Positions 19,211-58,231 of a DNA stretch of 64,000 nt are shown piece after piece. Positions within the stretch are counted from its first letter, which is position 1, and each line of letters opens with the position of its first letter. Source of the stretch: Kaistia adipata DSM 17808 (GTDB taxonomy: Bacteria; Pseudomonadota; Alphaproteobacteria; Rhizobiales; Kaistiaceae); the NCBI RefSeq assembly GCF_000423225.1, contig NZ_KE383991.1:1250217-1314216 (forward strand), read 5' to 3'. The position numbers were made by a program, and so were the translations under genes. Under the pieces are notes generated by a model. It had not been told where the DNA came from. It saw nothing but the letters and a program-made list of their open reading frames with translations, and ran no database searches.

Positions 19211-19903
19211 TCAGCCATGGCGGCGCGGGGCATCCAGTTTCGGCGGGGCGGGAACCCACCCCAGGATCGCGATCGCCCCGCGCGCGATCCACGCGACGTC
19301 GGAGGCGATCGTGCGATGCGGGAAATAGGCGAGGTCGAGCCTGGCCTTCGCCGGGAACAGCGCTCGCCGATAATAGGCAGTCGGCTCCTCGCTCGACGGA
19401 TAGAGGCTCGCTTCGTCGCGAAAGCAGACCTGGCTGGGCCCGAGCAGCCCCGGCTTGTAGCGAAGGACGTTCTCATAGCCGCCGCGAAAGCAATCGGCGA
19501 AGGCGAGGCTCTCCGGACGCGGCCCAACAATGGCCATGTCGCCGCAAAGGACATTCCAGAGCTGCGGCAGCTCATCCAGCTTCGTCGCGGCGAGAACGCG
19601 CCCCACCGGCGTCATCCGACTGTCGCCGACAACCGTCAGCGGGCAGCCGCTGGAGTCGCAGCTGACATGGAACTTTCGGAACTTGTACATCCGGAAGGGG
19701 CGGCCGCCGGCGCCAAACCGGGTCTGCGCGAACAGGATCGGCCGTCCGCCCTCGAAATACAGCGCCAGCGCGATGATGCCGAACAACGGGGCCAGCAGGG
19801 TCAGCGCCGTGGCGGCGCCCCCCACGTCGAGCGCGCGCCGCCCCCAGCCATGGGGGGCGTCCGGGACCGCCGGAAGCCCGAGACCCGCCTGCCGGACGCT
19901 CAC
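19211..19903 (-). CDS. Sugar transferase, PglC-like phosphoglycosyltransferase
   Basis: A 230-residue monotopic initiating transferase. One N-terminal hydrophobic re-entrant segment (ALDVGGAATALTLLAPLFGI) is followed by the bacterial sugar-transferase domain with PILFAQTRFGAGGRPFRMYKFR, the catalytic DE pair in TKLDELPQLWNVLCGDMAIVGPRPE, and RYKPGLLGPSQV. It moves a sugar-1-phosphate from its nucleotide onto undecaprenyl phosphate, starting the repeat unit. The GTG start at 19903 overlaps the stop of the aminotransferase (GTGA). The short form without the five-helix N-terminal region resembles PglC rather than WbaP. Confidence 0.88.
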   Translation of the reverse strand: MSVRQAGLGLPAVPDAPHGWGRRALDVGGAATALTLLAPLFGIIALALYFEGGRPILFAQTRFGAGGRPFRMYKFRKFHVSCDSSGCPLTVVGDSRMTPVGRVLAATKLDELPQLWNVLCGDMAIVGPRPESLAFADCFRGGYENVLRYKPGLLGPSQVCFRDEASLYPSSEEPTAYYRRALFPAKARLDLAYFPHRTIASDVAWIARGAIAILGWVPAPPKLDAPRRHG

Positions 19904-21033
19904 TTGGCCATCCCCATCTGCGAGACCCCGACGGCGTCGGCCAGCGCCGCGACGACGCCCTCGACCGTCTTGGTGGTGATGTCCGGATGCAGGGGAATGG
20001 TGAGCTCGCGCTGGGCGAAGGCTTCGGTCTTCGGCAGATGCACGCCGGGGCATCGCTCCCTGTACAGCGTCATCTTGTGCACGGGCGGATAGTGGATCGT
20101 GGTCTGGATGCCTTGCGATCGCAATCGATCGATGACGTCCTGCCGCTGCGCCGCATCCGGCAGGAGGATCGGCATGATGTGATACGCCGACAGGCGCGGG
20201 GCGCTGAACGGAATGGCCACCGCCGGACATTGCTGCGCGATCAGGCGCCGGTACTGCATCACGAGGATCTGCCGGATCTCGTTCCAGCCCGGCAGCCCGC
20301 GCAGCTGGACGATGCCGATGGCCGCCCGCAGCTCGTCCAGGCGATAGTTGAAGCCGAGCATCGTTACGTCATAGGTCGGCGTGCGGCTATTCAGCCTCTG
20401 ATGCGTCCCGCTCGACATCCCGTGGCCGCGCGCCAGGCGGATCCGGTCGCGCAGCGCGCGATCCCGGGCGATCACGGCGCCGCCCTCGGCGGTGGTCATG
20501 TTCTTGTTGCCATAGAAGCTGAACGCCGCCGCGACGCCATAGGTGCCGACTTCCTTCAGCCCGGGCGCATGCGCGGCATCCTCGATCAGCAGCAGGCCGC
20601 GACGCGCGGCAAACGCCTGCCAGGCTTCGCGGTCCGGCAGATAGCCGGCAAAATGGACCAGGATCACCGCCTTGGTGCGCGGCGTGCAGAGAGCCTCCGC
20701 CTCGGCGATCGACATCAGCGGCACGTCCATCGATTCAATGTCGACGAAGACGGGGGTCGCGTTGACATACAGAACCGCGTTGGCGGTCGCGACGAAGGTC
20801 AGCGCGGGAACCAGGACCTCGTCGCCGGGGCCGATGCCGAGCGCGTGCAGGATCAAATGAAGCGCCGCGGTGCAGGAGCTGACGGCGACGCTGTCCTCGG
20901 CGCCGTGCAGATTGGCGAAGGCCTCCTCGAACTCCTGCACCCGATCGCCCATCGTCAGCCACCCGCTGTCGATCACCTCGAACAGTGCCGCCTTCTCCGG
21001 AATCCCAACAATGGGTGCGCTGACCATGAGCAT
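19900..21033 (-). CDS. DegT/DnrJ/EryC1 PLP-dependent sugar aminotransferase
   Basis: A 377-residue fold-I aminotransferase. The motifs are SSCTAALHLILHALGIGPGDEVLVP, IEDAAHAPG and the PLP-lysine segment SFYGNKNMTTAEGG. The C-terminal region HIMPILLPD...GIQTTIHYPPVH is typical of the family. It transfers an amino group to the 4-keto (or 3-keto) position of an NDP-sugar. In this operon it would act on the product of the LegB-like dehydratase, giving a 4-amino-4,6-dideoxy sugar such as a bacillosamine precursor. The ATG at 21031-21033 has GAGGAAA upstream. Confidence 0.9.
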   Translation of the reverse strand: MLMVSAPIVGIPEKAALFEVIDSGWLTMGDRVQEFEEAFANLHGAEDSVAVSSCTAALHLILHALGIGPGDEVLVPALTFVATANAVLYVNATPVFVDIESMDVPLMSIAEAEALCTPRTKAVILVHFAGYLPDREAWQAFAARRGLLLIEDAAHAPGLKEVGTYGVAAAFSFYGNKNMTTAEGGAVIARDRALRDRIRLARGHGMSSGTHQRLNSRTPTYDVTMLGFNYRLDELRAAIGIVQLRGLPGWNEIRQILVMQYRRLIAQQCPAVAIPFSAPRLSAYHIMPILLPDAAQRQDVIDRLRSQGIQTTIHYPPVHKMTLYRERCPGVHLPKTEAFAQRELTIPLHPDITTKTVEGVVAALADAVGVSQMGMAK

Positions 21034-21087: not shown

Positions 21088-21810
21088 TCAGGCCGCGGTG
21101 GCCGAGGCCTCGATCGAGCTGGAGGTTTCCTCCCAGGCGATCGTCTGCGCGCTCTGGAAATCGTCGACCCGTCCGATGTCGAGCCACAATCCGTTGTGCT
21201 TGTAGACATGCACCTTGCATCCGTCCTGGAGCATCTGGAGCATGAGATCATCGAAGCCGAACGGCACGCCGGAAGGCACGAAGCGCATCACCTCCGGGCT
21301 CATGCAGTAGAGGCCCATGCTGACGAGATGCGACAGGGTCGGCTTTTCCCGGAACAACTGCACCGTGTCGTCTTCCTCATCGATGACGCCGAAGTCCATC
21401 TTGATGTTTCGGAACGTCGTCGCGATGGTCACCAGGCCCTCATGCTTGCGGTGCATGGCGATGAAGCGACTGAGATTGAGGTCGGTCAGCACATCGCCGT
21501 TCAGGACCAGGAAGGGCTCCGTCAGCTCGTCGCGGATCAGCGACAGCGGGCCGATCGTGCCAAGAGGCTCCATCTCCTGCGTGTAGTGGATGTTCAGGTT
21601 CCACTGCTCGCCATTGCCGCAGAAGCTGCGGATGAGATGGCCGAGATAGCCGGTCGTGATGTAGATGTCCTGGATCCCGTTGCGCCGAAGCCATTTCAGC
21701 AGCAGTTCGAGCACGGGGCGCGCCCCGATCGGCATGAGCGGCTTCGGCAGGACCGATGTGAACGGCCGCAATCTTGTTCCCATTCCGCCGCACTGGATGA
21801 CTGCTTTCAT
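21088..21810 (-). CDS. Sugar-1-phosphate nucleotidyltransferase
   Basis: A 240-residue nucleotidyltransferase. The signature VIQCGGMGTRLRPFT is at residues 4-18, with KPLMPIGARP, a GTIGPLSLI segment and FLVLNGDVLTD (metal aspartate). No C-terminal hexapeptide repeats or CBS domains follow, so it is the short RmlA/RfbF-like or PtmE-core type. It should activate a hexose- or hexosamine-1-phosphate for the dehydratase downstream. The ATG at 21808-21810 has GGAGGG five bases upstream; it is the first gene of the minus-strand operon. Confidence 0.88.
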   Translation of the reverse strand: MKAVIQCGGMGTRLRPFTSVLPKPLMPIGARPVLELLLKWLRRNGIQDIYITTGYLGHLIRSFCGNGEQWNLNIHYTQEMEPLGTIGPLSLIRDELTEPFLVLNGDVLTDLNLSRFIAMHRKHEGLVTIATTFRNIKMDFGVIDEEDDTVQLFREKPTLSHLVSMGLYCMSPEVMRFVPSGVPFGFDDLMLQMLQDGCKVHVYKHNGLWLDIGRVDDFQSAQTIAWEETSSSIEASATAA

Positions 21811-22221: not shown

Positions 22222-22899
22222 ATGTGCCGCATTGTGGTTGCCGACGATCACGGCCTCTACCGGCGGGGCCTGCGAAGTGCCCTGACCAGCGCCATCCCGG
22301 ACGCCGAGATCTTTGAAGCGCCGAATTTCGATACGGCGGTCTTCCTGCTGGAAGACAAGGCTCCGGTCGACCTCGCCATCCTCGACCTGCACATGCCCGG
22401 CCTGCTGACGCCGGAGGTGCTGATCGACGTGATGCCAATCTACCCCGACACGCGCTTCGCCATCATATCGGGATCGGAATCGAAAGCGGCCATCATCGCG
22501 ACGCTGTCCGCCGGCCTGCACGGCTTCATCGCCAAGTCACAGTCCGACGAGGAGATCGCCCACGCCGTGATCGACGTGCTGGCCGGCCGCATCTACGTGC
22601 CCGCCCTGCTCTCCCAGGCGTCGGAGCGGCACAGGATGCAGCCGACCGAAATATCCGATGGACGCCGGTTGGACCGGTCGATGGGCCTCGACAGCCTCGA
22701 CGGCCTGACCCAGCGGCAGCGCGACGTCCTGAGGCTGATGGCGGAGGGGTATTCCAACAAGGAGATCGCCCGCGACCTGCAGATCGCCGAGGCGACGACC
22801 AAGATTCACGCCGCCGCCGTCATGCGCCGCCTCGGGGTGCGCAATCGCACCGAGGCCGCCGTCATGCTGAAGACCTTGCTGACGCGAAAGTCGGGCTAG
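22222..22899 (+). CDS. LuxR/NarL family two-component response regulator
   Basis: A 225-residue regulator. The receiver domain (residues 1-120) has the acidic pair VVADDHG, the phosphoacceptor aspartate in LAILDLHMPG and the lysine in GFIAKSQ. The C-terminal LuxR helix-turn-helix (residues 155-220) reads LTQRQRDVLRLMAEGYSNKEIA, then RDLQIAEATTKIHAAAVMRRLGVRNRTEA. The last 38 bases overlap the convergent histidine kinase gene. Placed between the two arms of the polysaccharide locus, it is the likely activator or repressor of polymer synthesis. Confidence 0.9.
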   Translation: MCRIVVADDHGLYRRGLRSALTSAIPDAEIFEAPNFDTAVFLLEDKAPVDLAILDLHMPGLLTPEVLIDVMPIYPDTRFAIISGSESKAAIIATLSAGLHGFIAKSQSDEEIAHAVIDVLAGRIYVPALLSQASERHRMQPTEISDGRRLDRSMGLDSLDGLTQRQRDVLRLMAEGYSNKEIARDLQIAEATTKIHAAAVMRRLGVRNRTEAAVMLKTLLTRKSG

Positions 22900-24655
22900 A
22901 GGCCACGTCGTTTCGCGACAGATGCAGGGAATAGCGCAGTCCCCCGTTCAGCAGTTCCATGCTGGCGGAGCGCCCGACCAGCGGCGTGCCGCGGATGCCG
23001 AGGATGTTGGAGCCGAAGCCCCGGCGGTTCCGGTTGACGATCCCCGGCCGACGTCCCGTCTCGACCCATTCGAAGTGCAGGTCGCCGGCGAATTCCGGGC
23101 TTTCATCGAACCACCACTTCACGTCGACATGACCGTTCGCATGGCCCAGCGCGCCGTATTTCACGGCATTGGTGGCCAGCTCGTGCACGATCATGACGAA
23201 GCCCTCCGCCGCACCGTCCGACATGCTGATCGGAGGTCCGCTGATCGTGAAGTTGTTCAGCCGCTGATACGGCTTCAGTTCTTGAACGACGATGTCCCGC
23301 AGCGGCGCCGCCCAGGTCCCGTGGCGGGACAGAAGCTGATGCGTCGCCTCGAGCGCCCGAATGCGAGCGATCAGCGACTGCTTGTAGCCGGGGACGTCGT
23401 CCTCGGGGGCTTCCATCAGCTTCACGAGCGCGATCACCGCCGGGAACAGGTTGCACAGGCGGTGGCGAAGCTCGAGCACCGCGCCCTTGCGTCGCCTGGC
23501 CGCCGCCCGGAGCCGGATCCGCTCGCGCCGATAGGTGACATCGCTGGCGATGCCGGTGCGCATCGCCCCGCCGGGCGATGGCTCGCAGGCGCGCAGCGCC
23601 ACCCAGCGGATATGGCCATCGGCCCTCCGGACGCGGAATTCGAGCTGGCGATCCCCTGACGCATCGCCGGCGCCATAGGCGACGAAACGGCTCCAATCCG
23701 CCGGATGCACCACGGCGGACAGCGCGTCGAGGGAACGGGTGCTGGCCGGCGGCAGGCCGAGAATGCTCCAGAACTTGTCGGAACCGAGGACCAGCTTCCG
23801 CCGCGTGTCGATCTGCCAGGTTCCCAGGCGCCCGGCCGCCAGGGCGAGGTCCAGGAACGCCTTCTCGACGCCCAGCCGCTGCTGCCGTTCGGTGACGTCG
23901 CGGACCTCCGCCAGGATCGTGCGCGGCAGGTCGCCGTCGGCCGGGCAGAGCGACAGGATGATGCGCGTCCAGATCCGACCGCCATCCCGGCGATCCAGCC
24001 GCGCCTGGAACTCGACCGGCCCGCCCTCGGCGACCAGCCTTTCGAGGTTGCGGCGGCAGGCCAGCCTGTCCTCCGCAAGGATCAGCTCCTCCAGGTGGCC
24101 CGGCGGCCGGGCCGTCTCGTCCCGCCCGGCCATGTCACGCAGGCGAAGATTGGTTTCGAGCAGCTCGCCCCCGGCGCCGAGGATGGCGAGGCCGTCCGAG
24201 GCGTGGTCGAAGGCGTAGCGTTGCCGGCTGGCGCCGCCGGCCTCGGCGACGGCCGGCGGCGCCGCGGCCGGGGCCAGCGCCTGCCGCGCGCGCGCCTGCG
24301 GCAGATGCTGCCGCAGCAGAACGGCGATCCCGGCGCCGCAGATCAGAAGCTGGACGGAGGACAGCGACGCGACGCCGCCAAGCTGGGGATTGGCGGAACC
24401 ATGAAAATGGTAAGAGGCCATCCAAACTATAAGGAAGACATTGAAAATCATCGCAGCCAGGCTCAGAACCTGACCTCGGAAGAAGATTAATGCTGAAATT
24501 ATAAATACTTGCCCGATGCCGACGGCGAACTCATCCGTAAAGAGGGATACTAACTCGGCAACAAGGGCGGAGACAAAGGCCAGAGATACCAAAGCAACAT
24601 TGGTTGTTTTGGCGCGCAGATCGACGATACGGAACGCTCGATGTGCCGATGACAT
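22862..24655 (-). CDS. Membrane sensor histidine kinase, HWE family, with PAS domains
   Basis: About 597 residues. Four hydrophobic segments (VALVSLAFVSALVAELVSLF, GQVFIISALIFF, LAAMIFNVFLIVWMASY and SSVQLLICGAGIAVLL) lie in the first 140 residues. Two PAS/PAC domains follow (about residues 155-275 and 290-405). The kinase core has the HWE phosphoacceptor LRHRLCNLFPAVIALV, the N-box HELATNAVKYGAL and the diagnostic W-x-E in FEWVETG, ending with a G-rich ATP lid near GFGSNI. The start was taken at the ATG at 24653-24655, where the membrane region begins; an upstream ATG at 24775 would add 40 polar residues. It converges with, and slightly overlaps, the response regulator it probably phosphorylates. 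Confidence 0.82.
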   Translation of the reverse strand: MSSAHRAFRIVDLRAKTTNVALVSLAFVSALVAELVSLFTDEFAVGIGQVFIISALIFFRGQVLSLAAMIFNVFLIVWMASYHFHGSANPQLGGVASLSSVQLLICGAGIAVLLRQHLPQARARQALAPAAAPPAVAEAGGASRQRYAFDHASDGLAILGAGGELLETNLRLRDMAGRDETARPPGHLEELILAEDRLACRRNLERLVAEGGPVEFQARLDRRDGGRIWTRIILSLCPADGDLPRTILAEVRDVTERQQRLGVEKAFLDLALAAGRLGTWQIDTRRKLVLGSDKFWSILGLPPASTRSLDALSAVVHPADWSRFVAYGAGDASGDRQLEFRVRRADGHIRWVALRACEPSPGGAMRTGIASDVTYRRERIRLRAAARRRKGAVLELRHRLCNLFPAVIALVKLMEAPEDDVPGYKQSLIARIRALEATHQLLSRHGTWAAPLRDIVVQELKPYQRLNNFTISGPPISMSDGAAEGFVMIVHELATNAVKYGALGHANGHVDVKWWFDESPEFAGDLHFEWVETGRRPGIVNRNRRGFGSNILGIRGTPLVGRSASMELLNGGLRYSLHLSRNDVASSPTFASARSSA

Positions 24656-24925: not shown

Positions 24926-25642
24926 TTGGGCTTCATGCAGACAAGCGTACATTGGGAGTCAGAGAAATTGATAAACTTCAATCACAATGAAATCGTCTCC
25001 AGCGCCAATGGCAACAAATACGAGCTGCTGCATGCGGCCCTCTCCTTTGACATATCCGCCTGCATGGAGGGTGGGTCCGATGTCTCGGAGGCGCGCAGCA
25101 CCGAGGCGGCGTTGGCCGTCCTGGGACGCATCGGCGTCGGCTATCTCATTCTCGACGCGCAACGCAAGGTCGTCGACGGGAATCCCGCCGCGCAGATGAC
25201 GCTCGAACGTCAAGGCGAGAAGACCGACACGCTGGCGGGACTATCCGCCGCCTTCCGGCGCCTGACATCCAGCCTGTCCGTCAAGTTCCCGCCGAACTCC
25301 GTGTCCTGGGTGGTCATCCCGAGCCGATACGGGCGGCCGGTCGTGCTGCAGGAGCAGCTCAAGAACGCCTCGGAGGGAATGAGCATCGTCGTCCTGGTCG
25401 ATCGCGACAGCCGGCAGCAGCCCAATCCCGACACGCTGCAACGGATGTTCGGACTGACCAATGCCGAGACGCAGCTGGCGCTTTCCTTGGTGAGCGGCGA
25501 TGCGCCACTCGAGATCGCCCGCAGCCGGCGGCTCAGCCGAACCACCATCCGCTCGCAACTCGCCTCCCTCTTCACCAAGACGGAAACGAAGCGTCAGGCC
25601 GAGCTGGTTTCGCTCCTGTGCCGAATGGCCGTCCTGCCGTGA
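24926..25642 (+). CDS. LuxR-type HTH transcriptional regulator
   Basis: A 238-residue protein. The C-terminal LuxR-like helix-turn-helix (about residues 170-235) reads LTNAETQLALSLVSGDAPLEIARSRR, then LSRTTIRSQLASLFTKTETKRQAELV. The middle (residues 65-160) is PAS-like: VGYLILDAQRKVVDGNPAA. No receiver aspartate is present, so this is not a classical response regulator. The start may be TTG at 24926 or ATG at 24935. It lies between the kinase and the NRPS-like gene in the polysaccharide locus, with an unusually AT-rich stretch upstream at 24780-24870. Confidence 0.8.
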   Translation: MGFMQTSVHWESEKLINFNHNEIVSSANGNKYELLHAALSFDISACMEGGSDVSEARSTEAALAVLGRIGVGYLILDAQRKVVDGNPAAQMTLERQGEKTDTLAGLSAAFRRLTSSLSVKFPPNSVSWVVIPSRYGRPVVLQEQLKNASEGMSIVVLVDRDSRQQPNPDTLQRMFGLTNAETQLALSLVSGDAPLEIARSRRLSRTTIRSQLASLFTKTETKRQAELVSLLCRMAVLP

Positions 25643-25889: not shown

Positions 25890-28691
25890 TCACCGCGGCC
25901 GAACCGGCGTCCCGCCCTCCGCCGCGACGAGCGCGCGCGCGATCAGGGGGCGATTATGCGCGAGATGGGGAGCGACCAACATGTCGAGGTGACCGCCGGC
26001 GATCGAGACCACCTCCAGGCTGTCGAAGAGTTTGCTCCAGCCGAGATCCGCAGCCAGGTGCTGGCGGTCGCAGCGGAACACGGTGGCCGCGATCGGCAGC
26101 GGCGTCCTTGGCAGCGAGAGCCAGCGCCAGAAGGCTTGCATCCGCAGGACATCCTCGAGCTCCAGCCGCAGCATGAAGCGCGCCTTGGCGAGCGGCTGCC
26201 AGGTCAATCGCTGGATGCAGCCGGCAAGCCAGGCCTCCCGCCCCCTGCGCACGCAGATCTTGGCGATGGCCCGGCACAACAGCCGATCCAGGGTCATCCG
26301 ATGCGCCCGGATCCGTTGCGCCGTGCGGGCGACCGCCTCCCGGAAGTCATAGGCCACGGGCAGGATGTTGGTATCGAGAATGCCGAGGAACGGGATCGTC
26401 CGGCCGGCCGCGATGAGGCGCCTGGCGACTTCGAACGCAACGGCGCCCCCCAGCGAATAACCGATCAGCGCGACCTCTCCCTCGGGCTGCACGAGGCTGA
26501 TCTGCTCGAACACCATGTCGGCCATGACGGAAATGGACTCGTGCCCGGCCAGGATGTCCACGAGATCGGGATAGCGCACGGCGACGACATGGGCGACGTC
26601 GCTCATTTCGACGCCGAAGGCGGCCAGGCTCGGGCCATAGCCGATCGACCCCGGCAGCATGAAGAGCGTCGGCTGCGGGCTGCCTTTGTCCGCCCCGGAC
26701 GTTCGCCCCGCGCCCGTCCCGGAGACGGCGCGAACGACGTCGGAAAACCGCATGTCGACGGTGAAGGCGTCGAGGCTGAACTCGCGTCCGAACCGGGTTT
26801 CCAGCTCCATCGCGAGCTGAAGCAGCCGCAACGAGTCGCCGCCCAGCTCGTCCCATCGACCGCTCGTCTCGTCGCGCTTGAGGATCGCCCTCCAGACCTG
26901 CGCCACGACCGGCTCGATGCCGTCCATGTCGCCGGCCTCGTCCGCAACCTCGGCCGCAGACGGCTCCTGGCGGCGATCGGCCAGCCCGGCGTCGAGCGCG
27001 CGCAGCGCGGCGCCGTCGACCTTGCCGCCACGAAGCCGGGGCAGGCTCTCGACGCAATGCAGGCGCGCCGGCTGGAGCGCGGTCGGAAGCGACATGCGCA
27101 CGAGATCGCGCAGGGCCTCGACCAGCCCGGGCCCGGCGCCGGCTTCGGGAACGACGAAGACGACGATCTGGTTGTCGTCCGTCACGATCGCGACGGCATC
27201 GCTGACATCGGGCGAGCGGCGCAGGACAAGCTCCAGCTCGGCCGGCTCGACCCGTCGCCCGTTGATCTTGATGAGGCGGCCCTTCCGGCCGACGATCCAG
27301 GTCAGGCCGCGCCCGTCGATCTTGACGAGGTCCCCCGTCGCGAGGATCCGCCGCGACGGCGTGCCGGGATCCGCCGGCAGCGGCACGACGCGGCCGTTCT
27401 CCCAGGTTCCAAGCGTCGTGTAGGCGCTGCGGATCAGCAACTCCCCCTCGCCCTCCGCGGCCAGGGCGTGGCCCTGCTCGTCGGCGACGACATACTCGAG
27501 GCCCGGAACCAGGTATCCGACGGGAACCGTCGCGCCCGCCTCCGGATGGCCCTTGGGCAGGAACCATTGCGTGCCGATCGCCTCGGTCGAGGAATAGCTG
27601 ACCTGGACAAAGCAGCTATCCGGGACCGCCTCGCGAACGACATCGATGTCGGACCAGAGCACCTTCTCGCCGCCGATGCGGACGATCCGCAGCGACGCGA
27701 ATGTGCCGGCCGGCGCTCCCCTTGCCAGCACGCGCAGCAGGGCCGGAACGACATAGGTGACCGTCACCCGCCGCGACTGCAGCAGCTGGCGGATCGAGCG
27801 CAGCCCGACGCTTTCGATATCCGCGAGATAGAGCGTCGCTCCCGACAGGATCGCCGTCATCATCTCGCGGCAGCCAGCGATGGTCGCCGGACCGGTGAGC
27901 GGCATGAAGATGTCGCTCGGACCGATATGGCAGGCGTTCACGGCCTGCTGGACGCGCAGAAGCAGGCCGCGCTGGCTGTTGGCGATACCCTTCGGCTCGC
28001 CGGTGCTGCCCGAGGTCGGCAGGACCAGCGCAGGCGCGTCGACGGAGCCGGGTCGCGGCTGGAACGCCCGATCCGGGCGTGTCGCCGGCGCCATGCAATG
28101 GGCGGGATCGATCCAGTGCCGGCCGGGGTCGGCCAATCCCGACGAGAGCTCGGCCTGGTCGCAGACGATCACGGAAAGCCGCGCCCGGGAGAGGACGTCG
28201 TTCAGGCGCTGGGTCGGATCGCGTGGATTGAACGACACCGCCGGACGGCCGGACGCCATCGCGGCCAGCATCGCGACCGGATACCAGACGCAATTGCCCA
28301 GCAGCAGCCCGACGGCCTCGCCCTCGGGAACGGCGGCCGCGATCAGCCAGGCCAGTTGCCGCACGGCGCCCAGCAGCTCCGAATAGCTCAGCTCGGTGAA
28401 GCCGTCGCTGACGGCCAGTTTGCTTCCGTGGCTCGCGGCGATCCGTTCCAGATGCTCGAAGGCCGGCACCTCGCAGAAGCTCTCCTCCAGCCTCGGAAAG
28501 GGGCGGTCGACGGGTCCGTTCAGATCGAGCGGGTATGCGGGCGGTGCCAGCCAGTCGGGAGCGGCATCGCCGCCCCGTCCGTTGCCGACAAGGTCCTGGA
28601 TGCGAGTGTCCGCGATCACCCCCTCGTCGCGTGGAACCGAGGGTCTGTCGGACAGATCCGCCGAGCGCCCGCGAGACTCTGCATTGAACAT
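25890..28691 (-). CDS. Stand-alone NRPS-like protein, adenylation-carrier-thioesterase (A-T-TE)
   Basis: About 933 residues with three domains. An AMP-forming adenylation domain (about residues 50-560) has the P-loop LVLPTSGSTGEPKG near 220, YSSTEA, RRILATGDLVKIDGRGLTWIVG and the C-terminal lysine region LPRLRGGKVDGA. A carrier domain has its phosphopantetheine serine in LGGDSLRLL near 618. A thioesterase has GYSLGGAVAFEV with the nucleophile near 745 and the late histidine in IAGGHLDML. There is no condensation domain. It should activate one carboxylic or amino acid, tether it and release or transfer it. The ATG at 28689-28691 follows GGAG; an ATG at 28706 is possible. Located inside a polysaccharide locus, it is a candidate for polymer or sugar acylation. 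Confidence 0.85.
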   Translation of the reverse strand: MFNAESRGRSADLSDRPSVPRDEGVIADTRIQDLVGNGRGGDAAPDWLAPPAYPLDLNGPVDRPFPRLEESFCEVPAFEHLERIAASHGSKLAVSDGFTELSYSELLGAVRQLAWLIAAAVPEGEAVGLLLGNCVWYPVAMLAAMASGRPAVSFNPRDPTQRLNDVLSRARLSVIVCDQAELSSGLADPGRHWIDPAHCMAPATRPDRAFQPRPGSVDAPALVLPTSGSTGEPKGIANSQRGLLLRVQQAVNACHIGPSDIFMPLTGPATIAGCREMMTAILSGATLYLADIESVGLRSIRQLLQSRRVTVTYVVPALLRVLARGAPAGTFASLRIVRIGGEKVLWSDIDVVREAVPDSCFVQVSYSSTEAIGTQWFLPKGHPEAGATVPVGYLVPGLEYVVADEQGHALAAEGEGELLIRSAYTTLGTWENGRVVPLPADPGTPSRRILATGDLVKIDGRGLTWIVGRKGRLIKINGRRVEPAELELVLRRSPDVSDAVAIVTDDNQIVVFVVPEAGAGPGLVEALRDLVRMSLPTALQPARLHCVESLPRLRGGKVDGAALRALDAGLADRRQEPSAAEVADEAGDMDGIEPVVAQVWRAILKRDETSGRWDELGGDSLRLLQLAMELETRFGREFSLDAFTVDMRFSDVVRAVSGTGAGRTSGADKGSPQPTLFMLPGSIGYGPSLAAFGVEMSDVAHVVAVRYPDLVDILAGHESISVMADMVFEQISLVQPEGEVALIGYSLGGAVAFEVARRLIAAGRTIPFLGILDTNILPVAYDFREAVARTAQRIRAHRMTLDRLLCRAIAKICVRRGREAWLAGCIQRLTWQPLAKARFMLRLELEDVLRMQAFWRWLSLPRTPLPIAATVFRCDRQHLAADLGWSKLFDSLEVVSIAGGHLDMLVAPHLAHNRPLIARALVAAEGGTPVRPR

Positions 28692-28982
28692 GCACAACTC
28701 CAGCATTGGCCGAGGATGAGGTCGCAAGTTTCGTATCGGAGCGGGCTCCGGATCGCATCGTTTGAACGAATGACACGGCGGCCGCGCCACGGGCCGGAAG
28801 CGCCGGCGCGCCGGCCGACGCCCGGGCGGCGCGAACTTCATGCGAACGAACGAGGACAGCGAGCGCGCATCCTCCTAGCCTGATTTCGTAGACGCGGCGT
28901 GACGGACCGGAGCCGGCTCGACATCGCAACCGACCGCCTAGTTCCCCCGCCGGCCGCCGTCGAGGACAATCGGGAGGCTGGA

Positions 28983-30200
28983 ATGCAACCGCATCTGGTC
29001 TGCGTGGGTGGCGAAGACCACGCCTTGCGGATTCCGTTCCTGCTCGCGCTTCGGGATCGGGGGGTCGAGATCACGGCGGTGTCGAGCGGCGATGGCGCCG
29101 CCTTCGCACGGCACGGACTGTCGCATCGCCGATATGCCTTCGATCGCTTCGGCAGCTTCGGCGGCGGCTGGAGCGCGATCCGCCAGCTGCGCGGCCTGAT
29201 GCGGCAGCTGCGGCCCGATATCGTCCAGAGCTTCGACACCAAGCCCAACCTGCTGGTGCCGCTCGCCAGCCGCGGCACGGTCCCGCTGATCCGGACGATC
29301 AACGGTCTCGGCTGGGTGTTCTCGTCGACGGAGCCGCGCGCCCGCGCGCTGCGGCCGGTCTATTGCGGCCTGCAGCGGCTGGCGTCGCGATGGACGGCCT
29401 TGACGGTGTTCCAGAACCAGGACGATCAGGCCTTCTTCGACCGGCGCGGCCTGCTCGGCCCCGGCGGCATAGGCCGTCTGATCGTCAGTTCCGGCATAGA
29501 TCCGGCCGCCTTCCGGACGGCACAGCGGAACGGCCCGTCGCCGGATGCGCTGCGCAACCAGCTGGGGCTCGGCACCGCCGAGATCGTCCTCTTCGTCGGC
29601 AGGCTGACGCGCCAGAAGGGCATCCCCACCCTGCTCGAGGCGATCCCGATGGTCCTGGCGCAACGGAAGCACGCCCGTTTCGTGCTGGTCGGTCCGCGCG
29701 ACTCCGAGGGGCCCTTCGCCGTCGACCAGGCCTCGATCGATCGCCTGGCACCCCACGTGATCGCGCTGGGCCCGCGCTCGGACGTGCCGGCGCTGCTCGG
29801 CATGGCCGACGTCTTCGCCTTTCCGACCGAATATCGCGAGGGCGTTCCGCGCGTCCTGCTGGAGGCCGGCCTGGCGGGACTGCCGATCGTGGCGACCCGC
29901 ATGCCCGGCTGCGGCGACATCGTCGAGGACGGCCATAACGGCTATCTGGTCAAGCCCCGCGATGCGGATGCGCTCGCCGGCCGGATCATCGACCTTCTCC
30001 GCGACCCGATCGGCGCCAAGACCATGGGCGCCCGCACCCGCGCCATGGTGCGCGAGCGCTTCGCCCTCGCCCATGTCGTCGAGCAATATTGCGATGCCTA
30101 TGCGCGCATCCTCGGCGCAAGCGCGTCGGGGGAGGACGCCAAGGCCCGGATCCTCGCCGGGACCGGCCGGGTCCGCAGGCTGGACGTGCGCCGGCCATGA
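28983..30200 (+). CDS. Glycosyltransferase family 4
   Basis: A 405-residue GT-B glycosyltransferase. The N-terminal domain has IPFLLALRDRGVEITAV and DIVQSFDTKPNL; the C-terminal domain has IVLFVGRLTRQKGIPTLLEAI, FVLVGPRDSEGP and the E-x7-E donor motif FPTEYREGVPRVLLEAG, then GCGDIVEDGHNGYLV. Similar proteins transfer sugars to lipid-linked GlcNAc-type acceptors (PglA/CapM-like). The ATG at 28983 follows GGGAGG; an upstream GTG at 28899 is less convincing. It starts the right-hand polysaccharide operon and overlaps the polymerase gene by four bases. Confidence 0.88.
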   Translation: MQPHLVCVGGEDHALRIPFLLALRDRGVEITAVSSGDGAAFARHGLSHRRYAFDRFGSFGGGWSAIRQLRGLMRQLRPDIVQSFDTKPNLLVPLASRGTVPLIRTINGLGWVFSSTEPRARALRPVYCGLQRLASRWTALTVFQNQDDQAFFDRRGLLGPGGIGRLIVSSGIDPAAFRTAQRNGPSPDALRNQLGLGTAEIVLFVGRLTRQKGIPTLLEAIPMVLAQRKHARFVLVGPRDSEGPFAVDQASIDRLAPHVIALGPRSDVPALLGMADVFAFPTEYREGVPRVLLEAGLAGLPIVATRMPGCGDIVEDGHNGYLVKPRDADALAGRIIDLLRDPIGAKTMGARTRAMVRERFALAHVVEQYCDAYARILGASASGEDAKARILAGTGRVRRLDVRRP

Positions 30201-31444
30201 CCCGCAACGCGCTCCTCGCCGCCGGTATCGTGATGTCCTACGCATCACAGCTCGAGCCTCCCGGCCTTCCGATCGGCTATGGCGAGCTTTTCCTGTTCCT
30301 GTGGATCCTGCTGTCGCTGGGGCGGATCCTGGCCGGCGGCCGCATTGTGGTCACGCCGGCGCTGGTCCGCTTCGCCTGGTTCTGGACGATCCTCGCCCTG
30401 TCGCTCGGGATCGGCACGATCGTCGGCTATTTCTCGGAAATCCTCTATTTCGCGGGTATCTGGCACGACACCCTGGCCTATGCGCTGCTGGCCTGCGTGA
30501 CCTGCCTGGCCACCGCGGAACCGGATGCCGAACGGCGCCTGCGCCAATGCGCCTGGTGGGGGGTCGGCCTCGCCAACGCGACCCTCGCGATCCAGGCGGC
30601 GCTGGCGGCGGGCTGGATCCATCAGTCCGGCGTCGAGCCATGGTACTGGGACCGCTTTCGCGGCTGGTCGCTCAACCCGAACCAGATCGCGCTCTATTGC
30701 GCCGCCTTCGGCCCGCTCGCCCTGCATCTGGCGACAACGACCGACAAGCCCGTGGCCAGGCTGCTCGGATTCGCCGGCATGATCCTGCCCTTCTATGTCG
30801 GGCGGCTGACCAAGAGCGACACGTTCCTGTACACCTCGGTGCTGACCTGGATGATCTTCCTCGGGTTGCATCTGCGCAGCTGGCTTGCCGCCGGCCGGGG
30901 GATCGCCAGCGCCGGTCGCCAGATCGTCATGGTGCTGATCCTGGCCTCCCTTCCCCTCACCATGGCGCTCGCGCCCTTCGGGCTGGCGGAACTCGGCAAC
31001 GCCGAAAGCTTCGCCAAGAGCCTGACCAAGGACAAGGGCGGCGACGCGACGGCGGAGACCGCGGAACTGCGCCTCTATCTCTGGGAGGAAGCCATTCGCC
31101 GCGGGCTCCGCTCCGCCTCGCTCGGACTGGGCCCCGGCGCGCATCTCGAACGCCCCAACATCGTTGGCAATGGCAGCCTGCCGCGCCCCTTCGAAGCCCA
31201 TAGCACGCTGCTCGACCTCTACACCCAGGGCGGGATCCTGGCGGTCGGCGCGCTCGCCTGGATCGTCTTCACCGCCGCCTTTCTCGTCTGGCGGGCCAAG
31301 CTCGACGCCCTGCTGGTGCTGATCGTGTCGCTCGTCGTGTTCAGCCTCCCCCACCTGATCATCCGCCATCCGATCGTGTGGTTCTCGCTCGCGCTCTGCC
31401 TCGTCGCGGGAGCCCCCGCGACCGCTCCTGCCAGGGAAAGATGA
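30197..31444 (+). CDS. O-antigen ligase/polymerase-like membrane protein (Wzy)
   Basis: A 415-residue integral membrane protein with about ten hydrophobic segments and a long loop around residues 260-330 carrying RLYLWEEAIRRGL, LGLGPGAHLERP and EAHSTLLDLYTQGG. The E-A-H-S/T-x-L-D pattern matches the Wzy_C/O-antigen ligase family, whose periplasmic loop contains the catalytic arginine and histidine. It would polymerise the repeat units after flipping. ATGA overlap with the GT4 gene fixes the start. Confidence 0.82.
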   Translation: MTRNALLAAGIVMSYASQLEPPGLPIGYGELFLFLWILLSLGRILAGGRIVVTPALVRFAWFWTILALSLGIGTIVGYFSEILYFAGIWHDTLAYALLACVTCLATAEPDAERRLRQCAWWGVGLANATLAIQAALAAGWIHQSGVEPWYWDRFRGWSLNPNQIALYCAAFGPLALHLATTTDKPVARLLGFAGMILPFYVGRLTKSDTFLYTSVLTWMIFLGLHLRSWLAAGRGIASAGRQIVMVLILASLPLTMALAPFGLAELGNAESFAKSLTKDKGGDATAETAELRLYLWEEAIRRGLRSASLGLGPGAHLERPNIVGNGSLPRPFEAHSTLLDLYTQGGILAVGALAWIVFTAAFLVWRAKLDALLVLIVSLVVFSLPHLIIRHPIVWFSLALCLVAGAPATAPARER

Positions 31445-31448
31445 CGCC

Positions 31449-33446
31449 ATGTGCGGAATTGCAGGCATCCTCCTGACGCCGACCGCCGCCGATACGAGCC
31501 CGTTGCGGGCCATCGGACGGATGGCGAAGGCGCTGCACCATCGCGGGCCGGACGGCGAGGGATTGTGGACGGATCGCGAGGCCGGCATCGCGCTCGGCCA
31601 CAGGCGGCTGGCGATCGTCGACCTCTCCCATGCCGGGCACCAGCCGATGCTGTCCGCCAGCGGGCGCTTCGTCATCAGCTACAACGGAGAGATCTACAAT
31701 TTCGGCGATCTGCGCCGGGAGCTGGAACGGGAAGGCCAGGCGTTCCGGGGCGGCAGCGATACCGAGGTCATGCTGGCGGCGATCGAGGGCTGGGGGCTCG
31801 AGCCGGCGCTCCGGCGCTTCGCCGGCATGTTCGCCTTCGCGCTGTGGGATCGCCAGGCCCGAACGCTGCATTTCGCCCGCGACCGCCTCGGCAAGAAGCC
31901 CCTCTACATTGCCCGCACCCGCGACGCCCTGATCTTCGCTTCGGAGCTGAAGGCGCTGCGCACCTGTCCGGATTTCCGCCCGGAACTCGATCTCGATGCC
32001 GCCTCGGCCATGCTGGCCAAGGGCTGGGTTCCGGATCACCAGTGCATCTGGCGGAGCGCCTTCAAGCTGGCCCCGGGCGCGCTGCTGTCCCTGCGAGCGG
32101 ACCAGCTCGGCCCGGTTCCCGATGTCGATGTCCTGCGCGCGCGGGTCCGCTCCTGGTGGTCGCTCGACGACATCGCTGGCCGGGCGCGACGGAACCTGCT
32201 CGACGGCGACGACCAGGAACTGACGACCGAGCTCGAGACCCTGCTGCAGCGCGCCGTCCGCGAGCGCATGGTCGCCGACGTCCCCCTCGGCGCGTTCCTG
32301 TCAGGCGGGATCGACAGCGCGACCGTCGTCGCGCTGATGCAGGTCCAGTCGAGCAAGCCGGTGCGGACCTTCACCATCGCCTTCGGCGACGCGGGCTATG
32401 ACGAGTCGTCCCAGGCGGCCGAGGTGGCGCGCCATCTTGGCACCGAACACACCGAGCTGCGCCTGCTGCCGGACGCCGCGCGCGAGGTCATCCCGGAACT
32501 GCCGCGCGTCTGGGACGAACCCTTCGCCGATGAATCCGAGATACCGACCCTGCTGGTCTCGCGCCTCGCCCGCCAGCATGTGACGGTGGCGCTCACCGGG
32601 GATGGCGGCGACGAGGGCTTTGCCGGCTATTCGCGCCATTTCCTCGGCGCCCGCCTGGCCGGCTGGCATGCGTGGGGCGGGCCGTTGCGCCGCACCTCGT
32701 CGGGATTGCTGGCGCTCCTCGCGCGCGGCATGCGCCAGGACCTCTTCACCCGCTTCCCGGCCCGCCTGCGCCGTGCCCTGCGACCCGACCAGCTGGACCG
32801 GTTGGCCCGCCTTCTCGCCGCCGAGGACCAGCCGGAACTGTACCGGCGACTGGTCGGCACCTCGGAGAACGGGCTGGTGCGCCATCCGTCCCGGCTGGCG
32901 GCCGAGGCCCCGCCGCTCGACGATCTGGTGTCGCGGCTCCTCCTCGACGACGCCACCGGCTATCTCCCCGGCGACATCCTCGTGAAGCTCGACCGCGCCA
33001 GCATGGCCAACAGCCTCGAGACGCGCTGCCCGCTGCTCGACCATCGCGTCATCGAGTTCGCCTGGCACCTTCCCACCCGCATGAAGGTGCGCAACGCCAG
33101 GGGCAAGTGGATCCTGCGCCAGCTGCTCGGCCGCCATCTGCCGCGACGGCTGATCGACCGGCCGAAGCATGGCTTCGACGTACCGGTCGGCGACTGGCTC
33201 AGGGGACCGCTGCGCGAATGGTCGTCCGACCTGCTGGCGGACCTGCGTCGCGAACCGGACGGCCTCGTCGATATCGGCTTCATCGATGTCGACCGCGTCG
33301 ACGCCTGCTGGCGCGAGCATCTCGCCGGGCGGCGGGACCATTCGCGCGACCTCTGGTCGGTCCTCATGTTCCAGGCCTGGCGCCGCGAGCAGGCGGCGAC
33401 GATCCAGGCCGATCGCTATCAGCCATTCGCGTTGGCAGGGGAATGA
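31449..33446 (+). CDS. asnB: Asparagine synthase (glutamine-hydrolysing) family, AsnB-like
   Basis: A 665-residue protein. The N-terminal class II glutaminase has nucleophile Cys2 (MCGIAGILL), then the RG-x-D-like HHRGPDGEGLWTD, GHRRLAIVDLS and YNGEIYNF. The C-terminal synthetase has the ATP PP-motif GAFLSGGIDSATVVALM and GDGGDEGFAGY. Family members make asparagine, but those inside surface-polysaccharide loci often amidate uronic acids or other carboxyls. It lies four bases after the polymerase and two bases before the Wzc-like gene, clearly in the same operon. That it acts on the polymer or on the NRPS-tethered acid is inference. Confidence 0.88.
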   Translation: MCGIAGILLTPTAADTSPLRAIGRMAKALHHRGPDGEGLWTDREAGIALGHRRLAIVDLSHAGHQPMLSASGRFVISYNGEIYNFGDLRRELEREGQAFRGGSDTEVMLAAIEGWGLEPALRRFAGMFAFALWDRQARTLHFARDRLGKKPLYIARTRDALIFASELKALRTCPDFRPELDLDAASAMLAKGWVPDHQCIWRSAFKLAPGALLSLRADQLGPVPDVDVLRARVRSWWSLDDIAGRARRNLLDGDDQELTTELETLLQRAVRERMVADVPLGAFLSGGIDSATVVALMQVQSSKPVRTFTIAFGDAGYDESSQAAEVARHLGTEHTELRLLPDAAREVIPELPRVWDEPFADESEIPTLLVSRLARQHVTVALTGDGGDEGFAGYSRHFLGARLAGWHAWGGPLRRTSSGLLALLARGMRQDLFTRFPARLRRALRPDQLDRLARLLAAEDQPELYRRLVGTSENGLVRHPSRLAAEAPPLDDLVSRLLLDDATGYLPGDILVKLDRASMANSLETRCPLLDHRVIEFAWHLPTRMKVRNARGKWILRQLLGRHLPRRLIDRPKHGFDVPVGDWLRGPLREWSSDLLADLRREPDGLVDIGFIDVDRVDACWREHLAGRRDHSRDLWSVLMFQAWRREQAATIQADRYQPFALAGE

Positions 33447-33447
33447 A

Positions 33448-35709
33448 ATGGAAGGCTCCATCGTCCGCAACATTCACGCGCGGCCCGCGCCCCCGGCACT
33501 GACGACGGCCCGCGAGGCAGGCCGGCAGCTGCGACAGATGCCGGCCGACCCCGCCGAGCTGCCGACGCCGGGGCGAGAGGTCGCCATCACGCTGTTGCGA
33601 AAGAAGTGGCTGATCCTCGGCTTCGCCCTTCTCGGCGGCGCCCTTGCGGGCCTGTCCGCCCTCGCCCGCCCGCCGATCTATTCCGCCAGCACGCAGATCA
33701 TCGTCGAATCGGCCGGCGGCGGGGCCACGGGGGCGACCCCGCAGGATGTGCTCGACTCCACGATGGACAGCCACCTGACGATGCTGACCTCCGATGCGCA
33801 TCTGCGGCATGTCCTGGCCGCGCTTCGCGAGGGCGACGCGCAGCGAGCGGCGACAGCTGCCGAGGCAAGCCCTCCCTCCCCCGGCTTTTCCGGCCGACTG
33901 GCCGAGGCGCTTCGGGCGGCGCGGGCCTCGGCGGGCCACTTCCTGCGCGGGCTCCTGTCCGGCGGCGCGACATCCCCTCCCTCCCCGGAGGCAGCCGACA
34001 CCGCGGCGCGCGCCGCCCTGAAGGCCAATCTGCGGGTCGGCCAGGAACTGCGCTCGCGGATCATCACGATCGGTTTCACCGATCCGAACCCGGAGCAGGC
34101 CGCCCGTGTCGCCAACCTGGTCGCCTCCGTCTATGTCGACAATCTGGCGCAGCACAATCGCGAGCTGAAGGAGCAGGCCCTCGCCGGGATCGAGGAAAGC
34201 CTGCCGGTTGCGCAGCGCCAGCTGGCGAACGCCGCCAGCCAGCTGGACGCCTATCGCCTCACCCAGGGAGCCGGCAGTCCGGCCGGCTCCGACACGACCG
34301 GCCAGGAAATCACCCTGCTCGGCCAGCAGATCGCCCTGCTCGAGGCCGATCTCGCCGAAACGACCCGGCGGATCGACAAGATCCAGGCCTTGCGCCAGGG
34401 CGGCGCGCCGGCCCAAGAACTGGCCGCCGCGATCGGCTCTCCCGCCCTCGACGACCTTGCCGCCCGCGGTGCCCCCGCCGCGGGATCCGGCGGCGCTGCC
34501 GCCGCGACGACCGACCCGGCCGCGAGACTGGCCGAGCAGGTCGACAAGGCGATCGCCCATCTGGACGAGCAGGGGAACATGGATCGCACGCAGCTGGCCT
34601 TGCTGCGGCAACGCCGCGACGCGCTCAATGCGACGGCCAACGATGTCGCCGACCGCCTGTCGGGCCTGCGGGCCCTGGAGCTGCAGGTCGAGGTCGCGTC
34701 CCGCCGCTACAATGATCTGCTGAGCCGCCAGCAGGAGCTGGTGCAGCAGATTGCCTCCGCCGCCCCCGGCGTCGCGGTCTGGTCCGAAGCCTGGCCGCCG
34801 ACCCGGCCGACAACCCTGTCCTCCGCCTTCCTCATTCCGCCGGGAATGGTTGTGTTCGGCATCCTCGGCGCGCTGTTCGTCATCCTGCGGCACCGGTCCG
34901 ATCCCGTCCTGCGCAGCGAGGCCGCGGTCGAGGCGGCGCTGAAGATCCCCTGCGTCGGGCTTCTCCCCAGGATCGCCCGGCCGCAGGCGCAGCGACTGAG
35001 CCGGATGCTGCTGGCGGAGCCACAGTCGATCTATACGCGCGCGCTCCGCTCGCTGCTGGTTTCGCTGGGGGCGCCGGATGCCGGCCTGCGCCTGCCCAAC
35101 GTCCTGCTCATCACCTCGAGCAACCGCCAGGAGGGCAAGACCACGCTGGCCTGGAGCATCGCCCTGGCCGCGGCGCGGCTCGGCGAGACCGTGCTGTTTC
35201 TCGATCTCGACATGCGGGACGGCCCGTTGACACGCGAGTTCCGGGACGCCTTCAGCCGCACGACGAGCCAGGCGACCCTCGCCGAGGCGCTGCAGGGAAC
35301 CTGCCCTCTGGCCGACGCGATCGAGGAAATGCCGGACATCGGCATCCACTTCATACCGTCTCCCGGCGCCGGCTGCGATCTGCTTCCCCTGATGACATCG
35401 CCGGACGCCGCGTCGCGGCTGGAGCCGCTGCGCGAGGCCTACGCCCTCGTGGTCATCGATGGCCCGTCGGCGTCGGAAGGCCCGGAGGCGAGGCTTGCGA
35501 CAGCCTGGGCCGACGCGGTGCTCTTCGCCGTGCGCTGGGGCACGACGGAGCCGAACCTGGCCCGCGAGGCACTAGCGAGCCTCGGCGCCGGGCCGTTTGA
35601 CGATCGCGCCCTGCCGATCGCCAGCGTGCTGACCCAGGTCAACCTGAAACAGCATGCCGGCTTCCGGTTCGGCGACAGCGGCGACCTCCTGCTTGCCGGC
35701 CAGCGATGA
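33448..35709 (+). CDS. Wzc-like polysaccharide co-polymerase with BY-kinase-like ATPase domain
   Basis: A 753-residue protein. The N-terminal Wzz domain has a transmembrane segment at about residues 50-70 (KKWLILGFALLGGALAGLSA), a long periplasmic coiled coil to about 455, and a second membrane segment near 470 (AFLIPPGMVVFGILGALFVIL). The cytoplasmic ATPase carries Walker A SSNRQEGKTT at about 556-565, Walker A' VLFLDLDMR and Walker B ALVVIDGPS. It controls chain length and couples synthesis with the Wza-like exporter. The usual C-terminal tyrosine cluster is absent: the protein ends FGDSGDLLLAGQR. Autophosphorylation of the standard kind is therefore doubtful. Confidence 0.88.
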   Translation: MEGSIVRNIHARPAPPALTTAREAGRQLRQMPADPAELPTPGREVAITLLRKKWLILGFALLGGALAGLSALARPPIYSASTQIIVESAGGGATGATPQDVLDSTMDSHLTMLTSDAHLRHVLAALREGDAQRAATAAEASPPSPGFSGRLAEALRAARASAGHFLRGLLSGGATSPPSPEAADTAARAALKANLRVGQELRSRIITIGFTDPNPEQAARVANLVASVYVDNLAQHNRELKEQALAGIEESLPVAQRQLANAASQLDAYRLTQGAGSPAGSDTTGQEITLLGQQIALLEADLAETTRRIDKIQALRQGGAPAQELAAAIGSPALDDLAARGAPAAGSGGAAAATTDPAARLAEQVDKAIAHLDEQGNMDRTQLALLRQRRDALNATANDVADRLSGLRALELQVEVASRRYNDLLSRQQELVQQIASAAPGVAVWSEAWPPTRPTTLSSAFLIPPGMVVFGILGALFVILRHRSDPVLRSEAAVEAALKIPCVGLLPRIARPQAQRLSRMLLAEPQSIYTRALRSLLVSLGAPDAGLRLPNVLLITSSNRQEGKTTLAWSIALAAARLGETVLFLDLDMRDGPLTREFRDAFSRTTSQATLAEALQGTCPLADAIEEMPDIGIHFIPSPGAGCDLLPLMTSPDAASRLEPLREAYALVVIDGPSASEGPEARLATAWADAVLFAVRWGTTEPNLAREALASLGAGPFDDRALPIASVLTQVNLKQHAGFRFGDSGDLLLAGQR

Positions 35710-44602: not shown

Positions 44603-44752
44603 CGACGATGTCAGACCGCCTGGTTGCGAAGAATTGGAAGCGATCCTGACTTGACAAGAATATCATAACCAACTTCGAGCTCGCCAGGTATCATTGTTGC
44701 CATTCTCGATTGATTGTCCGAAGCGAGGAATTCGATCTAGAGGGAGGGCGGC

Positions 44753-44775
44753 CCGGATTCGTCAGAAGAATCCGG
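44753..44775. terminator. Hairpin between defence gene and catabolic operon
   Basis: CCGGATTC at 44753-44760 pairs with GAATCCGG at 44768-44775, an 8-bp stem with a 7-base loop between convergent genes. It is a candidate weak terminator. The surrounding 180 bp hold no gene. Confidence 0.45.
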
Positions 44776-44786
44776 ATCATATGGTC

Positions 44787-46954: not shown

Positions 46955-46977
46955 GGGCGGCTCCTCGGAGACCAGCG

Positions 46978-49610: not shown

Positions 49611-49714
49611 TGGAATGGTCCTGTCATGTCGGTCAGCGTGAGTGCCGACCCGTCAGAGGGCGGCGCCAGACTCGGCATCGAAGCGATATACGCGCGATTG
49701 CGGCGCAGAGAGCG

Positions 49715-50659: not shown

Positions 50660-50669
50660 CGGATAAACC

Positions 50670-58229: not shown

Positions 58230-58231
58230 TC

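Follow-up and report, generated by a model that had tools for sequence, protein, structure and literature searches.

An adenylation-carrier-thioesterase protein in an exopolysaccharide locus of Kaistia adipata as a candidate polymer decoration enzyme

The window analysed here is a stretch of 64,000 nucleotides from Kaistia adipata DSM 17808 (NZ_KE383991.1, positions 1,250,217 to 1,314,216). It contains an exopolysaccharide (EPS) locus with a gene for a protein composed of an adenylation (A), a carrier (T) and a thioesterase (TE) domain, referred to as A-T-TE below. A preliminary description of the locus had proposed that this protein aminoacylates an amino sugar of the polymer, with a neighboring AsnB-type amidotransferase amidating a carboxyl group. 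In related genomes, A-T-TE recurs with the EPS genes and with AsnB and alternates with a FemAB/VimA-type transferase and a deacetylase. A role in polymer decoration is well supported by these sequence comparisons.

The A-T-TE gene and its genomic locus

A-T-TE is encoded on the minus strand at positions 25890-28706, with the start chosen by codon scoring. The longest open reading frame (ORF) at this site spans 25890-28841 (983 amino acids, aa). The interval assigned to the gene in the preliminary description, 25890-28691, represents the same minus-strand gene, position 28691 being the next in-frame ATG after 28706. A large ORF on the opposite strand (25956-28883, plus) was discarded, since codon scoring and the base composition at the three codon positions favor the minus strand, which is also matched in the genome search for AMP-binding domains. 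The gene, its domains and the surrounding locus are listed below, with the supporting evidence in brackets.

15629..16891, minus strand: Wza-type polysaccharide export protein (Pfam)
16888..18129, minus strand: U10, a conserved protein of unknown family in this locus family (conservation)
18150..19157, minus strand: LegB-like NAD-dependent 4,6-dehydratase (395 bits, cut-off 475)
19211..19903, minus strand: PglC/WcaJ-type initiating sugar transferase (PF02397)
19900..21033, minus strand: DegT/PseC-like sugar aminotransferase (PseC model 298 bits, cut-off 424)
21088..21771, minus strand: sugar-1-phosphate nucleotidyltransferase-like protein (family models)
22234..22899, plus strand: LuxR-family response regulator (family models)
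22862..24592, minus strand: PAS/HWE histidine kinase (Pfam)
24935..25642, plus strand: LuxR-type regulator, conserved in this locus family (weak family matches only)
25890..28706, minus strand: A-T-TE protein, 938 aa (ORF, codon scoring, Pfam, relatives)
25893..26669, minus strand: thioesterase domain with Ser751/Asp778/His906 (Pfam, alignment, structure match)
26763..26906, minus strand: carrier (T) domain, GGDS with Ser625 (Pfam, alignment)
27021..27239, minus strand: AMP-binding C-terminal subdomain with A10 Lys562 (Pfam, alignment)
27408..28448, minus strand: adenylation core domain PF00501, with I276, R280 and R343 at the GrsA 235, 239 and 299 sites (Pfam, alignment)
28899..30200, plus strand: GT4-family glycosyltransferase (Pfam)
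30197..31444, plus strand: Wzy-like membrane protein, marker of the locus family (named by position and appearance; no Pfam match)
31449..33446, plus strand: AsnB-type glutamine amidotransferase, WbpS/XrtA-like (TIGR03108, TIGR01536)
33448..35709, plus strand: Wzz chain-length/tyrosine-kinase-like protein (family models)
35782..36594, plus strand: P-loop kinase-like protein (family models)
36591..38102, plus strand: Wzx-like flippase (PF01943 28.3 bits, cut-off 28.2)

The gene map agrees with the earlier placement of A-T-TE between polysaccharide regulators and a Wzx/Wzy operon. The two LuxR-type genes and the HWE kinase lie to its left, and the genes from GT4 through Wzy-like, AsnB, Wzz/kinase and P-loop protein to Wzx lie to its right. 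Beyond the regulators follow the nucleotidyltransferase, DegT/PseC-like, PglC-type, LegB-like, U10 and Wza genes. Family-model matches bear out the LegB-, DegT- and PglC-like genes and the AsnB-type amidotransferase that had been described, and no acyltransferase family was found at E <= 0.001 among the locus proteins scanned against Pfam, as had been remarked for dedicated acyltransferases. The window AsnB scores 497 bits with TIGR01536 (cut-off 267) and 551.5 bits with TIGR03108, which is under the cut-off of that model (816.9) and exceeds the asparagine-synthase model scores in bits.

All four Pfam domains of A-T-TE score over their cut-offs: AMP-binding (165 bits, cut-off 29.9), AMP-binding_C (36.7, cut-off 24.5), PP-binding (28.6, cut-off 20.8) and Thioesterase (65.6, cut-off 26.4). 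A condensation domain was not found in the protein by the Pfam scan at E <= 0.001. The carrier Ser625, the A10 Lys562 and the thioesterase residues Ser751, Asp778 and His906 (numbering of the 938-aa protein) are invariant in 14 of 14 aligned family members. Judged by domain set and catalytic residues, the enzyme looks complete, in line with its first description as an A-T-TE protein without condensation domain. Relatives along the whole length are present in other genomes at 38-59% identity; a chance or artefactual ORF is therefore rejected, and by this conservation A-T-TE is a real gene.

The AlphaFold model of A-T-TE (mean predicted local distance difference test score, pLDDT, 79) has the EntF terminal module of a non-ribosomal peptide synthetase (NRPS) as its top Foldseek match (E 1e-48). 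Compared with adenylation domains including DltA, it reaches Z 44.7 with a root-mean-square deviation (rmsd) of 2.2 over 488 residues, a value that many others tie. A model of the TE domain alone (mean pLDDT 84) best matches the NocB TE (Z 22.6, rmsd 2.8, 209 residues), and several further NRPS thioesterase domains lie within 1-2 Z of it.

Distribution of A-T-TE and co-occurrence with exopolysaccharide genes

In 13 genomes of the same genus, no match to A-T-TE was found at E <= 1e-30. Among 397 evenly sampled genomes of the order, 14 matched at E <= 1e-60, the own genome included; in one of these (G025) the match is confined to the adenylation domain, so that 13 genomes have a full-length protein. 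At class level, 3 of 385 genomes matched at E <= 1e-120, and three family samples, overlapping with that of the order, contained A-T-TE in 4/12, 5/346 and 9/296 genomes. In the searches of the order, the class and the two larger families, only the two or three top candidates of each genome were scored. Relatives were obtained from plasmid records and genome searches; plasmid-borne members occur in Mesorhizobium japonicum (59%), Mesorhizobium sp. AR07 (50.5%) and Bradyrhizobium elkanii (46%). In the AR07 record (L040:20058-23657), no gene is listed for A-T-TE and the called frame runs into nadE, possibly reflecting a broken copy. A contig search with the family alignment returned, among the matches listed, only distant adenylation proteins (22-30% identity in A2).

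Homologues lying mainly outside polysaccharide loci had been named beforehand as an outcome that would speak against a polymer role; this outcome is not observed. In the fetched neighborhoods, each of the 13 genomes of the order sample with a full-length protein has at least one copy among polysaccharide genes, counting the diverged G342 protein (38%), whose neighbors are a deacetylase, Wzy_C and a PglC-like gene. Across the inspected copies with at least 46% identity, 20 of 25 have polysaccharide genes in the fetched flanks. In another order, a distant relative (32%; L173:9059-16380) has a PF14907 nucleotidyltransferase and a diverged protein of the AsnB type in its vicinity and is perhaps part of a peptide cluster.

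The Wzy-like protein was found in 17 of the 397 order genomes. The 12 genomes that it shares with the 13 A-T-TE genomes are the 12 closest of each set (A-T-TE at least 49%, Wzy-like at least 44%, thresholds read off afterwards). The chance of such a perfect overlap for a random 12 and 12 from 397 is about 4e-23, a figure that serves as a guide only since the genomes are non-independent by shared ancestry. Together with six genomes from a family sample, which were picked for A-T-TE, these 12 form a set of 18 A-T-TE EPS genomes. AsnB is present in all 18, and its N-terminal MCGIAG motif in 15 (8 in called starts, 7 of 10 on re-reading); in the remaining three the pattern is unmatched, gene starts in relatives being codon-score calls with some N-termini cut short. 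Pairwise distances of A-T-TE correlate with those of AsnB (r=0.946, 18 genomes), Wzy-like (r=0.906, 18 genomes), GT4 (r=0.881, 12 genomes) and LegB (r=0.712, 11 genomes).

Typically, A-T-TE is located on the same strand as and downstream of Wzx or Wzz (12/18 loci, one with an intervening acyltransferase gene), and in the window and three relatives it is divergent from GT4. Several f23-type loci and pMLb (L044:6967-8526, L045, L039) encode an RTX/calcium-binding repeat protein adjoining A-T-TE that is not seen in the window. Taken as sequence evidence, the co-occurrence supports the assignment of A-T-TE to the EPS system.

Alternation with a FemAB/VimA-type transferase and a related gene set

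The other five genomes with the Wzy-like protein (36-43%: G301, G236, G356, G132, G036) contain no A-T-TE in the order search or in the fetched stretches. GT4, Wzz, Wzx and U10 are retained in the first four, and G036 is represented by a 3.8-kb contig. Since G236 also retains the nucleotidyltransferase, DegT, PglC and LegB at 64-69%, the genes for a 4-amino sugar are common to both locus types. The G301 and G236 stretches lack AsnB and instead encode a TIGR03019 protein (FemAB family, XrtA-associated; 328-329 bits, cut-off 260) and a TIGR03006 deacetylase (319-324 bits, cut-off 276). AsnB was found in one of the five A-T-TE-less genomes within the stretches fetched; the G356 stretch is covered only to 96,000, and AsnB beyond that point is possible.

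Across whole genomes, TIGR03019 matches none of the 18 A-T-TE EPS genomes versus four of the five A-T-TE-less ones, the fifth (G036) being an 84%-complete assembly; it was found in 1 of 26 hand-picked other genomes of the order. TIGR03006 exceeds its cut-off in 0/18 versus 3/5 genomes. In the other two A-T-TE-less genomes, weaker TIGR03006 matches (120-124 bits) lie directly beside FemAB. Weak partial matches are also frequent in A-T-TE genomes, where the best reaches 89 bits. Neither TIGR03019 nor TIGR03006 matches the own genome at E <= 1e-10. The link of A-T-TE to the polymer made in the preliminary description is thus strengthened by the shared closest genomes, the constant AsnB and this replacement.

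In trees of Wzy-like (23 rows), GT4 (16) and U10 (15), the two locus types separate with support of 100/99 or better, and each tree needs only one change between them. The pattern fits a single exchange, in either direction, that was retained by the A-T-TE loci of four families (f1, f19, f23, f35).

A second gene set in several genomes contains TE or A-T-TE, a NadE-like protein, AsnB, a stand-alone A protein, an acyl carrier protein (ACP) and usually a methyltransferase:

L052:2500-10742 and L053:8321-16500, also L054, L056-L058, L061, L196 and L197: operon of TE or A-T-TE, NadE, AsnB, AMP ligase and ACP (gene order)

The stand-alone A protein of L052 scores 484 bits with TIGR03098 (cut-off 592). 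In G229, G248 and G314, the second set is located inside the same EPS locus. Separate TE proteins of 268-370 aa are encoded beside a separate A protein and ACP in L057, L058, L060 and L061, which suggests that the TE can act as a separate protein. As A, carrier, TE and AsnB recur both split and fused, their joint action gains support.

Further features of the window lie outside this system. Next to the EPS locus, positions 38654-44602 encode a 1982-aa protein with DUF4011, AAA_11/AAA_12 helicase, REase_MTES_1575 and DUF3320 matches that could be a defence-type helicase-nuclease. The region 44001-59131 has a lower GC content (0.57-0.62 vs 0.655-0.711 elsewhere) and contains genes for a GMC oxidoreductase, an aldehyde dehydrogenase, an ABC transporter and pyridoxal phosphate-related proteins; with a short integrase-like ORF (58742-58987, recognized by eye) and a tRNA-Met at 59055, it looks like an island beside a tRNA. 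At 5816-7936, a 706-aa protein of the ADP-ribosylglycohydrolase family adjoins sugar ABC-transporter genes.

Proposed role and comparison with known systems

The nature of the loaded acid can be approached from the adenylation pocket, whose sites were assigned by alignment to GrsA positions 235, 239 and 299. The Asp235 column is Ile in all 14 A-T-TE family members and Asp in 45 of 49 comparison rows. The 239 site is Arg in 14/14 members and the 299 site Arg in 13 and Lys in one, while basic residues at both sites occur in 0/49 comparison rows; the latter are a non-random set, namely the returned relatives that read without stop (49 of 50 tried, of 80 loci). The Ile at the amine-binding site and the two conserved basic residues make an alpha-amino acid an unlikely substrate and favor a carboxylic acid of anionic or polar character. 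A dicarboxylic, hydroxy or keto acid would fit better, and acylation seems a more apt term than aminoacylation. Of the polymer aminoacylation first proposed, the decoration of the polymer is thus retained and the amino acid as the loaded group is not. The neighbors of two copies may hint at the nature of the acid and at the presence of a uronic acid: L041:18460-24421, where A-T-TE adjoins genes for an aldo/keto reductase and an enzyme of the 3-keto-5-aminohexanoate-cleavage type, and L192:655-6281, where it is beside an FMN-dependent dehydrogenase and a UDP-glucose dehydrogenase.

A-T-TE and AsnB are accordingly proposed, with middling confidence, to form a decoration module of a Wzx/Wzy-type EPS. 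The A domain would use ATP to activate a carboxylic acid, probably not an alpha-amino acid and probably with a second anionic or polar group, and the activated acid would be held on the phosphopantetheine of the T domain. The TE may then transfer it onto an amine of a repeat-unit amino sugar, the best candidate being the 4-amino group made by LegB/DegT, and the WbpS-like AsnB would amidate a carboxyl on either the sugar or the acyl group. In sister loci, the FemAB/VimA-type transferase and deacetylase would occupy the place of this module. The step served or completed by A-T-TE and AsnB would be one that decorates sugar amines and carboxyls, given the roles described for VimE/VimA/WbpS and proposed for HfsH/HfsK. 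By this analogy, A-T-TE and AsnB are best read as a thiotemplate module that has assumed an acylation step of the VimA type. The most specific form of this reading is somewhat less probable than the module itself: an NRPS-type thiotemplate would have replaced the FemAB/VimA transferase, and its TE would transfer a hydroxy or dicarboxylic acid, as an intermolecular N-acyltransferase, to an amino sugar linked to a lipid or a nucleotide, with a dedicated AsnB amidating the free carboxyl of this acid or that of the sugar.

Several observations weigh against the proposed module. For five of the 25 inspected copies (L041, L052, L056, L193, L194), of which L052 and L193 lie near contig ends, the fetched flanks show no recognized polysaccharide gene, and distant members (32-39%: G407, G758, G1285) occur in mixed contexts. 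With two or three candidates scored per genome, a missed copy is possible. G132 carries FemAB plus AsnB (46%), which shows that the tie between AsnB and A-T-TE is not a strict one. As the trees need only one change, the alternation may stem from a single event preserved across the 18 genomes and not from 18 separate events. The fold predicted for the TE is that of ordinary NRPS thioesterases, which hydrolyse or cyclise, and in one A-T-TE locus (L046 of G309) a PF01757 acyltransferase gene lies beside A-T-TE, a relative of which is also carried by G301 and G356.

The last two points also favor an alternative in which A and T load an acid for the polymer and another protein transfers it, with the TE editing or releasing mis-loaded thioesters or freeing the amidated acid. 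The stand-alone TE proteins beside stand-alone A and ACP likewise indicate that the parts can act in trans. The window locus, however, has no acyltransferase family, and the TE triad is kept in 14/14 members; we consider this alternative unlikely.

Less probable still is that A-T-TE makes a diffusible small molecule that is merely co-regulated with EPS, like fungal quinone or furanone synthetases. The domain order is shared with non-reducing NRPS-like enzymes for aromatic alpha-keto acids (PMC9047271), the amine-binding Asp is absent from the family, and some copies are located outside recognized EPS loci. The 12 genomes shared with the Wzy-like gene, the constant AsnB and the alternation with a transferase of the VimA kind nevertheless point to the polymer, and the two basic residues would make for a pocket unlike an aromatic one.

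Marginally the least likely alternative is the strict form of the preliminary description, an alpha-amino acid loaded and put on a sugar amine, which has in its favor the alternation with VimA-like proteins, VimA being credited with placing Ser or Gly on a sugar (PMC7468200), and DltA among the closest, tied folds, and against it the Ile column and a DltA model score of 74.9 bits (cut-off 559.85).

If the proposed module is correct, NRPS chemistry would be joined to polysaccharide assembly, a thioesterase domain would gain a transferase role on sugars, and one EPS decoration step would be served by two unrelated kinds of enzymes. A new polymer modification would be predicted in relatives of plant symbionts, given the plasmid-borne relatives in Mesorhizobium and Bradyrhizobium. 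This could easily be tested, as loci with (G314, G1362) and without A-T-TE (G236) occur within one genus (g43).

A carrier-activated acid is transferred onto the 4-amino sugar of a surface polysaccharide in the tetronate system of Vibrio cholerae O1, where an AMP ligase and an ACP feed the N-acylation of perosamine. Unlike the fused A-T-TE, this system consists of separate proteins and a dedicated transferase.

The VimE/VimA/WbpS system of Porphyromonas gingivalis produces a linking sugar with an amino acid on the sugar amine and a uronamide (PMC7468200). A vimA swap changes the serine on this sugar to glycine and deletion of wbpS leads to loss of the amide, whereas the role of the deacetylase VimE is proposed; VimA matches TIGR03019 and WbpS is an AsnB-type protein of the TIGR03108 family. 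Here as there, a polysaccharide pathway would include the N-acylation of an amino sugar and the amidation of a carboxyl by an enzyme of the AsnB type, and sister loci of the window locus carry TIGR03019 and TIGR03006 proteins. The window genome, in contrast, has no match to these two models, used as proxies for VimA and VimE, and encodes an ATP- and carrier-dependent enzyme instead. The Porphyromonas sugar links secreted proteins, while no exosortase was found here (other sortases were not searched). Similarly, tuning of the Caulobacter holdfast has been proposed as the role of the deacetylase HfsH together with the Fem-like HfsK (PMC5362036). Such a pair of deacetylase and Fem-like N-acyltransferase is present in the sister loci, whereas the window genome, lacking matches to the two models (HfsH and HfsK themselves were not searched), has A-T-TE.

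The XrtA/PEP-CTERM EPS loci (TIGR03108, TIGR03098, TIGR03019, TIGR03006) likewise combine an AsnB-type amidotransferase, an AMP-forming ligase and Wza/Wzz-type export; they differ in that A, T and TE form one protein in the window, where both the A domain (144.8 bits with TIGR03098, cut-off 592.35) and AsnB score under the XrtA cut-offs. The exosortase PF09721 was found in none of 23 locus genomes including the own one at E <= 1e-5, whereas the control genome G038 was positive, about 1.5 kb from its FemAB, and the XrtA label was dropped on both grounds. The 2006 PEP-CTERM/EpsH paper makes no mention of an amidotransferase, ligase, asparagine, acyl carrier or hydrolase (PMC1569441). The fungal A-T-TE synthetases share the domain order without condensation domain and the use of substrates without an alpha-amine, but theirs are aromatic alpha-keto acids released as free dimers (PMC9047271), in contrast to the EPS context and the two basic pocket residues found here (pocket codes were not compared).

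In the open-licence literature, judged by titles and the beginnings of abstracts, no description of an A-T-TE enzyme in an EPS locus was found, and the earlier statement that no system with exactly this set is described holds to this extent. Viewed across these analogies, the underlying logic of an N-acylated amino sugar combined with AsnB-type amidation is already known from Wbp/Vim and from exosortase EPS loci, in which FemAB, deacetylase and AsnB are found together (PMC7468200).

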